From an uncultured Oscillospiraceae bacterium (GTDB lineage: Bacteria; Bacillota; Clostridia; Oscillospirales; Oscillospiraceae), in contig CAMVMU010000007.1 in NCBI GenBank assembly GCA_947168655.1, positions 1 through 49,408 on the forward strand: a DNA stretch of 49,408 nucleotides, given 5' to 3'. This document shows, piece after piece, positions 28,798-30,459 of the stretch. The notes under the pieces were generated by a model that was not told the DNA's origin, searched no databases, and saw only the letters and a program-made list of their open reading frames with translations. The position numbers and the translations under genes were made by a program. Each line of letters opens with the position of its first letter. Position 1 is the first letter of the stretch.

Positions 28798-28838
28798 GGT
28801 ACGCCCCCGTGCATTCACGGGGGCGTACCCAACTTTTT
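28798..28838. terminator. Bidirectional terminator between DUF523 and uracil permease genes
   Basis: GGTACGCCCCCGTG (28798-28811) and CACGGGGGCGTACC (28816-28829) form a 14-bp stem with loop CATT, followed by AACTTTTTT on the plus strand. Confidence 0.9.
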
Positions 28839-28847
28839 TGGGAGGAG

Positions 28848-30239
28848 TTACTGGTTTACCTTCTCCTTGCTGCCGCCCAGAATTACGTTGGCAATGATGC
28901 CCAGGATCAGAGCAACGGCGATGGCGGTGATGGTGATCTTGCCGAAGGTGAGGGCCAGACCGCCGATACCGCAGATCAGGATGATGGACACGACGAACAG
29001 GTTGCGGTTCTCGTTCAGATCCACCTTCTGGACCATCTTCAGTCCGCTGACCGCGATAAAGCCGTAGAGCGTAATGCACACGCCGCCCATCACGCAGTTG
29101 GGGATGGAGGACAGGAAGGTCACGAAGGGACCGAAGAAGGAGATCACGATGCTCATGATAGCAGTGGCGAGGATCGTGATGGTGGAGGCGTTGCCGGTGA
29201 TGGCCACGCAGCCGATGGACTCGCCGTAGGTGGTGTTGGGGCATCCGCCGAAGAGGGCGCCGGCGAAGGAGCCGATGCCGTCACCCAGCAGAGTTCTGTG
29301 GAGGCCGGGATCCGTCAGAAGGTCGGAATCGACGATAGTGGAGAGGTTCTTGTGGTCGGCCAGATGCTCGGCGAACACAACCATGGCAACCGGGACGTAG
29401 GCCACGGCGATGGTCGCAATAAAGGGACCGTCCACTTCGTGCACGCCCTTAAGGGCTTCCATAAAGGTGAAATCGGGAACGGAGAGCAGACCCATATTCT
29501 TGAACACGCTGAAGTCGATGATCTGCAGGGAGAGGTCATTGTTCTTGATGCCGATGACCGTGAAAATCGCGGCAGCAGCGTAACCGGCCAGGATGCCGAT
29601 GATGAAAGGAATGAGCTTCATCATCTTCTTGCCGTATACAGAGCAGATCACGACGGTAAAAAGGGTTACGAGGCCACAGATCAGGGCGATGTAGGGATTG
29701 GCGGCGGATACCTGAGAGACCTTTTCAACAATTTCGCCGTTTTCGATGGCGGGTTCGACCAGATCCACCAGAACCTTACCCTTGGTCAGATCGCCGATGG
29801 CGTTGCCGGCCAGAGACAGGCCGATGATGGAGACGGTGGGGCCGATCACAACGGCGGGCATGAGCTTGTCGATCCACTTGACGCCCACCAGCTTGACGAT
29901 GATGGCAATGACCACGTAGACGAGGCCGGCGAAGAAAGCGCCCAGGATCAGACCGAAGAAGCCGGCGGAAGCGGAAGCGGCGCCGGCAAAAGCGGCAAAC
30001 ATGGAGGGCAGGAACGCGAAGGAGGAGCCCAGAAACACGGGGCTGCGGAATTTGGTGAAGAGCAGATAGACGATGGTTCCGACGCCGGCGCCCAGAAGGG
30101 CGGCTGACTGACTCATGCCGTTGCCGACGATGGAGGGAACGGCGATGGTGGCGGCCAGAATCGCCAGCACCTGCTGCAGCGCGAACAGAAGCGTCTGTCC
30201 GAATTTGGGCTTGTCTTTGATGCCGTACGCAAGTTTCAT
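28848..30239 (-). CDS. uraA: Uracil permease (NCS2 family)
   Basis: The 463-residue protein is a 14-helix nucleobase:cation symporter. It shows the NCS2 blocks LFALQQVLAILAATIAVP, the VGPTVSIIGLSLA region, FAEHLADHKNL with the substrate-contacting glutamate, and GGCPNTTYGESIGCVAITG, which points to the UraA/PyrP uracil branch and not xanthine permeases. The ATG at 30239 has AGAGAGGA upstream. It is preceded by a leader peptide and terminator (30300-30401) that would control transcription by pyrimidine supply. Confidence 0.92.
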   Translation of the reverse strand: MKLAYGIKDKPKFGQTLLFALQQVLAILAATIAVPSIVGNGMSQSAALLGAGVGTIVYLLFTKFRSPVFLGSSFAFLPSMFAAFAGAASASAGFFGLILGAFFAGLVYVVIAIIVKLVGVKWIDKLMPAVVIGPTVSIIGLSLAGNAIGDLTKGKVLVDLVEPAIENGEIVEKVSQVSAANPYIALICGLVTLFTVVICSVYGKKMMKLIPFIIGILAGYAAAAIFTVIGIKNNDLSLQIIDFSVFKNMGLLSVPDFTFMEALKGVHEVDGPFIATIAVAYVPVAMVVFAEHLADHKNLSTIVDSDLLTDPGLHRTLLGDGIGSFAGALFGGCPNTTYGESIGCVAITGNASTITILATAIMSIVISFFGPFVTFLSSIPNCVMGGVCITLYGFIAVSGLKMVQKVDLNENRNLFVVSIILICGIGGLALTFGKITITAIAVALILGIIANVILGGSKEKVNQ

Positions 30240-30299: not shown

Positions 30300-30328
30300 A
30301 AAAAAAAGAACCGGTAATGATACCGGTT
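30300..30328 (-). terminator. Attenuator terminator upstream of uraA
   Basis: On the minus strand AACCGGTA (30328-30321) and TACCGGTT (30316-30309) form an 8-bp stem with a 4-nt loop, then C and eight T (30307-30300). The leader peptide stop codon overlaps the first arm. Confidence 0.9.
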
Positions 30329-30401
30329 ATAGAGAAAAAACACAGATAAAAGAGGAGATAAAGAGAGCGGCGACGTTCTGGGGGAAATATCGCAGCGCCA
30401 T
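30327..30401 (-). CDS. 24-residue leader peptide of the uraA attenuator
   Basis: A strong Shine-Dalgarno (AGGAGGTGA) lies just before ATG 30401. The frame codes for 24 residues beginning MALRYFPQN and ending with a phenylalanine- and serine-rich, hydrophobic second half; its TAA (30329-30327) touches the terminator. The second half of its RNA is a long pyrimidine-rich, U-rich run with TTT codons (TTTTTT at 30340-30335). This is the layout of the pyrBI leader of enteric bacteria: RNA polymerase pauses in the U-rich run when UTP is low, the ribosome catches up and blocks the terminator. Function is inferred from architecture; the peptide itself probably has none. Confidence 0.75.
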   Translation of the reverse strand: MALRYFPQNVAALFISSFICVFSL

Positions 30402-30430
30402 GACTCTCACCTCCTCAATTTTTCCTGATT

Positions 30431-30459
30431 ATTATAAAATCCGTGAGGGCAAATTGCAA
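30431..30459 (-). promoter_or_regulatory. Predicted promoter of the uraA leader
   Basis: On the minus strand TTGCAA (30459-30454) and perfect TATAAT (30436-30431) with a 17-bp spacer; the start would be about 10 nt before the leader ribosome site. Confidence 0.75.

Follow-up and report, generated by a model that had tools for sequence, protein, structure and literature searches.

How a uracil permease gene is controlled in a Clostridial gut bacterium is the question raised by the window, by which we mean the whole stretch of 49,408 nucleotides analysed here (contig 7 of genome G000, which is 76% complete). PyrR-dependent attenuators are known at pyr and uraA genes of Bacillota. A second scheme, leader-peptide attenuation in response to UTP, has been described in enteric bacteria; it requires a ribosome that follows RNA polymerase closely. 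An earlier note on this DNA had proposed an arrangement of the latter kind, resembling enteric pyrBI, in front of the permease gene. Our analysis favours that reading, and we put the probability that the element is a pyrBI-type transcription attenuator, coupled to the ribosome and sensing pyrimidine nucleotides, at roughly 0.8.

The leader and its conservation in the genus

The features of the leader region are listed in Table 1. Promoter, Shine-Dalgarno (SD) sequence, 24-codon ORF, T6, stop-hairpin overlap and T8 all agree to the base with what the earlier note had described. The 24 leader codons read MALRYFPQNVAALFISSFICVFSL, and the hairpin is AACCGGTA-TCAT-TACCGGTT, with the stop codon TAA sharing two bases with its 5' end. 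Over the 45 nt upstream of the hairpin the pyrimidine fraction is 0.84 and the U fraction 0.56, and the permease ATG at 30239 lies 60 nt beyond T8. The permease scores 272 bits with TIGR00801, 257.8 with the PRK10720 uracil permease model and 131.4 with the xanthine permease model; since all three are below the curated cut-offs, uracil is its probable substrate by similarity only. Downstream, where the DUF523-like gene and uraA converge, a strong inverted repeat of 14 bp followed by a T tail (28798-28829, plus strand) is likely a terminator.

Table 1. Features of the leader and of the gene behind it, in window coordinates
Feature	Position	Strand	Details
Promoter TTGCAA-17-TATAAT	30431..30459	-	TTGCAA 30459-30454, spacer 17, TATAAT 30436-30431
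Leader SD AGGAGG	30410..30415	-	8 nt upstream of ATG
5' arm of predicted SD-sequestering helix	30404..30416	-	SD plus spacer; MFE fold
Leader ORF, 24 codons + TAA	30327..30401	-	ATG 30401-30399, stop TAA 30329-30327
Pyrimidine/U-rich tract, putative UTP-sensitive pause region	30329..30373	-	T6 at 30340-30335
3' arm of predicted SD-sequestering helix	30352..30365	-	one bulge; within the pyrimidine tract of the ORF; MFE fold
Intrinsic terminator (attenuator)	30300..30328	-	8-bp hairpin 30328-30309, C, T8 30307-30300
Controlled gene, NCS2 nucleobase permease, uracil permease-like (UraA)	28848..30239	-	NCBIfam profile scores

The layout is like that of E. coli pyrBI, where pyrL is also an SD-led ORF with a pyrimidine tract running into an 8-bp hairpin and T8, with a pyrimidine gene behind. 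The hairpin lies 73 nt past the ATG here and 88 nt past it in pyrL. The layout differs in that the 24-codon ORF stops in the 5' arm whereas the 44 codons of pyrL read through the hairpin. The U fraction over the 45 nt upstream of the hairpin is only 0.31 in pyrL. In addition, the host here belongs to the Bacillota and the controlled gene is a uracil permease.

For 40 NCS2 permease genes, some of the genus and some of other genera, we scanned the DNA upstream; G053, whose start was not placeable, had been dropped. The leader was found in 28 of the 29 same-genus regions and in none of the 11 regions scanned from other genera. G006, the lone same-genus exception, has a UraA-type gene that is preceded by different sequence and no leader, and no permease was recovered in the genus genomes G004, G014 and G027. 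As in the window, bioY lies upstream in nine compared loci (L005, L016, L017, L019, L023, L024 and L026-L028). A perfect TATAAT starts 32-38 nt upstream of the leader ATG in all 28 genus elements. Their ORFs measure 19, 20, 21, 22, 23, 24, 25, 27 or 28 codons, the stop (UGA or UAA) ends 0-4 nt past the first hairpin base in 28/28, and the distance from the ATG to the CCGR stem anchor is 0 mod 3, again in 28/28. To arrive at nine ORF lengths, eight or more changes of length are needed, and by our own estimate the chance of staying in frame throughout without translation is about (1/3)^8.

The earlier note had proposed aligning relatives, and the outcome was the one it had named as support: start, stop position, U-rich tract and hairpin are kept in 28 of 28 same-genus elements while the leader peptide drifts, and the same pattern was met again in other genera and families. 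A covariance model built from the 28 genus elements (R1) gave one strong match each in 28 of 32 genus genomes (E <= 1.2e-14), all before the permease, with the next best match anywhere in the genus at E 3.6e-4 (candidates were scored after a loose first pass). Together, these comparisons indicate that the attenuator is real and widely conserved.

Hairpin, pyrimidine tract and SD pairing

Covariation was found at 4 of 9 terminator pairs across the 28 genus elements, with 95.2% of cells pairing. Sixteen cells are altered on both sides, a count that none of 500 shuffles reached. At the pair that includes the second base of the stop codon, G-C alternates with A-U, with G-U in between, which corresponds to UGA and UAA. 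This pattern indicates selection for the hairpin structure itself. Within the ORF, U occupies third codon positions at a fraction of 0.60 in the last 15 codons of the 28 leaders, compared with 0.18 in the earlier codons and 0.16 in reference genes. As the peptide drifts but this bias is kept, selection acts on the transcript. Such a pattern bears on the idea that the ORF encodes a functional small protein, for example a membrane peptide, with the terminator being incidental. The strong SD and the hydrophobic C-terminal halves of the leader ORFs would suit a product of this kind, but a length of 19-28 codons, a drifting sequence, a stop fixed in the hairpin and a U bias strongest at third codon positions speak against it, and we give it almost no credence.

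A leader ORF in front of a terminator could also point to amino-acid attenuation of the trp/his kind, in which charged tRNA is sensed via regulatory codons. Leader-peptide attenuation in Firmicutes is exemplified by the His leader peptides described before hisS/hisZ in bacilli (PMC2965389), which, unlike the present leaders, carry runs of His codons and answer to another signal. Ser (20%), Val (16%) and Phe (15%) feature in the last 15 codons here; however, no codon run is common to the 28 drifting leaders, and the inspected downstream genes are not amino-acid genes. An antiterminator was also not found in pairings of the hairpin 5' arm with the upstream leader, for which the cognate energy was -8.22 and the swapped energy -8.25 kcal/mol (p 0.54, n=25). 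The 5' arm thus pairs with its own leader no better than with the leaders of other species, and a trp-like antiterminator is not supported; the mean pair probability of the terminator stem was 0.96 (n=25). G022, G024 and G026, near-identical to G003, were left out of this test and of the SD-tract pairing tests, and L326 was left out of this test run and its other-genera SD-tract set. Altogether, we consider sensing of an amino acid very unlikely.

A different pairing is predicted further upstream. The early pyrimidine tract of the window leader (30365-30352) can pair with the SD region plus spacer, the fold z being -3.68 when the terminator is excluded. Over the 28 genus elements the mean SD pairing probability is 0.84, the partner being centred about 47 nt past the ATG and 25 nt upstream of the hairpin. 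RNAalifold does not recover the SD helix, hence we used cognate-versus-swapped energies. SD-tract duplexes gave -18.1 (cognate) versus -15.7 kcal/mol (swapped) in the genus (n=25, p 5e-5) and -20.0 versus -17.1 kcal/mol in other genera (n=27, p 5e-5), both p values being inflated by relatedness, which is largely avoided by a set of 15 representatives of 14 genera with -17.8 versus -15.9 kcal/mol (p 0.013). Compared with shuffled tracts, the SD paired with its tract at a mean z of -1.31 (n=25) and -0.92 (n=14). The spacer alone gave p 0.046 with the tract, and a control pair (tract with ORF start) also gave p 0.04. Fold z-scores of the leaders average -1.44 and -1.22 in two sets, with many single leaders unremarkable, and SD-tract pairing is poor in the g33 and g73 representatives. 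These models suggest a tendency of each leader SD to pair with the pyrimidine tract of the same leader, which is new here. Support for this pairing is a further difference from E. coli pyrBI, the tests having covered only the present leaders.

Distribution of the element and the genes behind it

We ran R1 on 400 genomes drawn from the family. Outside the genus there were 28 matches at E <= 1.4e-4, all of which were inspected: 26 lie in front of pyrimidine genes, namely uracil-type permease genes in 24 cases, pyrB in one and a cytosine permease gene in one, and the remaining two, in G430 and G483, were judged false. The 26 elements fall in eight further genera. All 24 permeases are of the NCS2 type and start 2-84 nt behind the element; in each, the uracil permease model beats the xanthine model by 77-126 bits, with none reaching the uracil cut-off of 477. 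The pyrB gene scores 346 bits with TIGR00670 (cut-off 237), and the cytosine permease 214 bits with PRK11017 over a 190-aa stretch, below the cut-off of 326. Among 13 inspected family matches weaker than E 1.4e-4, three precede a permease (G755, G574 and G432) and ten look false. R1 is ignorant of the downstream gene, yet pyrimidine genes follow, which points to a pyrimidine signal. The stop lies inside the hairpin in 25 of 28 tabulated family elements; for L326 its position was taken from separate inspection, the tabulating scan having picked another hairpin. The L337 leader stops 2 nt before the hairpin, and those of L339 and L351 read through it as E. coli pyrL does.

The genes behind the element also help to judge whether the attenuator, while coupled to translation, might sense translation capacity (ribosome supply, growth rate or leader initiation) and not UTP, with the tract serving to keep the RNA unfolded or to pair with the SD. 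The predicted SD-sequestering helix would make leader initiation a bottleneck, and any terminator blocked by a ribosome needs a stop inside the hairpin. Neither the pyrimidine genes behind 26 of the 28 family matches nor third positions enriched in U, and not merely in pyrimidine, would be expected from such a switch, and we regard it as unlikely.

A second covariance model (R2, 46 sequences) was run on 394 genomes of the order. Of 19 lower-scoring loci inspected, six lie before a permease. These represent four other families (G298 and G109; G400 and G342; G203; G365), G109 having already been in the training set; the other 13 are not before a permease. One of these 13, L377 (G304), belongs to the family itself: the start of a dihydroorotase-like gene there resembles a pyrimidine-rich leader and matches R2, probably by chance.

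How often the arrangement arises by chance was gauged with a strict scan for a hairpin with T tail, an SD-led ORF ending in the hairpin and at least 68% pyrimidine upstream. The background set comprised the window and 146 related loci with the known uraA upstream regions masked, amounting to 1,534,024 bases with both strands counted; L059 and L211 were left out. There were 14 matches, of which 13, in 10 loci, precede homologous permeases of the same genus, so that the true background is 1 match per 1,534,024 bases (both strands). Applied to 183 regions upstream of UraA-type permeases across the order, in which some genomes are present twice, the same scan passed 6, representing 5 distinct sequences. 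The element is therefore rare among UraA-type permeases of the order.

Comparison of the window with G011 (L017) reveals a change of gene behind the leader. Their DNA runs collinear, with 80% identity, from birA and bioY via promoter, leader and terminator to 30301, and does so again from 28769 with 87% identity. In contrast, the permease ORFs (window 28848-30239) have only short patches of similar DNA and about 31% protein identity. This indicates that the permease ORF has been exchanged in place for a distant homologue with the attenuator retained, a finding that is new here. G018 has the window-type permease behind bioY, yet its BioY is 68% identical compared with 84% for G011, which makes more than one exchange, or transfer, likely.

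Mechanism, coupling and PyrR

As far as sequence can tell, all pyrBI-type features tested are present: an SD-led ORF, a U tract, an ORF reaching the terminator, no antiterminator and pyrimidine genes downstream. The pyrBI-type reading of the earlier note thus gains support from conservation among relatives and from the uracil-type permeases, pyrB and cytosine permease behind the element, while we infer the sensing step. As placed by the promoter, transcription would begin just upstream of the leader SD, and a ribosome would load and translate the short ORF behind RNA polymerase. At scarce UTP, the polymerase would slow in the U-rich tract, allowing the ribosome to catch up and cover the terminator 5' arm, where the stop codon lies; no hairpin would form and the permease would be transcribed. 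At plentiful UTP, the polymerase would run ahead, the hairpin would form and transcription would stop. As a likely refinement, the transcribed U/C tract may fold back on the leader SD, in which case a slow polymerase would also widen the time for ribosome loading. Uptake is thus probably turned on when the pyrimidine stocks of the cell run low.

Such a mechanism depends on how closely ribosomes follow the polymerase. One account (PMC13323073) assigns runaway transcription to the Bacillota as a phylum, which would weaken coupling, and pyrBI is said to need tight transcription-translation coupling (PMC5021804). That leaves two options: ribosome and polymerase are coupled in this lineage over about 100 nt, or pairing between SD and tract sets up a race of ribosome loading against polymerase passage. 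It is tempting to extend the latter option to a kinetic UTP sensor with two gates, native to gut Bacillota, in which the tract would both slow the polymerase at low UTP and close its own SD, and which would act as an autonomous cassette whose downstream gene is replaced. With loading racing passage, the switch could work even where ribosomes normally lag; we advance this extended version tentatively, as a possibility that we hold somewhat doubtful. Separately, the coding-strand purine excess of 27 window ORFs is +0.009, a value from crude gene calls without a yardstick; an excess so near zero is perhaps unexpected under runaway transcription.

A conserved pyrBI-like design in a Clostridial family would be a natural, testable probe of coupling in Bacillota. 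It would offer a pyrimidine-control route for genomes without PyrR, and it suggests that such switches arose or spread outside Proteobacteria. Among the matches listed by a literature search no title dealt with a pyrBI-type leader in Bacillota, and an earlier mention may exist. Pyrimidine-nucleotide control of a uracil permease operon is also found in E. coli, where upp-uraA is reported to be governed by reiterative initiation (PMC4448216). The present element differs in having an ORF and a terminator and in lacking a T-run at the expected transcript start, and reiterative initiation was rejected on the latter ground.

Target genes of this kind would also fit a terminator under PyrR control, such as precedes many pyr and uraA genes in Bacillota, and PyrR is the regulator named for Gram-positives in one source (PMC13328217). 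Here the leader is apparently translated and bears no recognised PyrR loop, and the genus mostly has no PyrR gene. No match exceeded the NCBIfam cut-off for PyrR in G000 (76% complete) or in 27 of the 32 genomes of the genus, the leader-bearing G008 (100% complete) being one of them; the other 5 of 32 have a PyrR gene over the cut-off. Only about 22-25 nt separate the likely transcription start from the ATG, leaving little room for an upstream PyrR loop. An Rfam scan for PyrR sites at the gathering threshold called none in the window leader, and equally none in L073, L093 and L110, which have PyrR-like loops by eye, so that its negative for the window is uninformative. On the other side, a pyrR-like gene in front, or PyrR-like loops, can be seen by eye at some of the related uraA genes of the order. 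PyrR control of the leader is highly improbable in our view, and PyrR is unlikely to be the regulator in most of the genus.

Inspection by eye of uraA loci across the order gave a varied picture. What we take to be PyrR-like loops, of the kind CTTTAA...GGTACGGGATGCCGGCAAG, lie upstream of uraA in L071, L073, L089, L093, L105, L110, L164, L197 and L200. The gene directly follows a pyrR-like gene in L031, L038, L041, L043, L044 and L047, and a upp-like gene in L032, L033 and L035. With uraA behind pyrR-like or upp-like genes in many relatives, its control appears to change type across the order.

The pyr operon of the genus seems not to use the leader, there being no second strong R1 match per genome. 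In 6 of 11 pyr-operon regions, those reaching that far, no leader precedes the first visible gene (pyrC-like, by eye); 4 of the 11 end inside a carB-like gene, and that of G002 is not this operon. In G000 the pyr operon is interrupted by the contig end.

Further leaders upstream of uraA were seen by eye. A common GATAAGTCT... leader before a terminator, in L173, L174, L186 and L193 (all genus g245), resembles neither PyrR loops nor a peptide leader. In L176 (G470) and L177 (G583) there are additional leader ORFs, each with a U-rich tract and accompanied by a stepped hairpin; that of L176 apparently continues through the terminator to end on the permease start codon (ATATGA). The 5' arm of a hairpin lies over a possible ribosome site in L061, L077 and L087, a T tail being present in some of them; this is perhaps another leader design.
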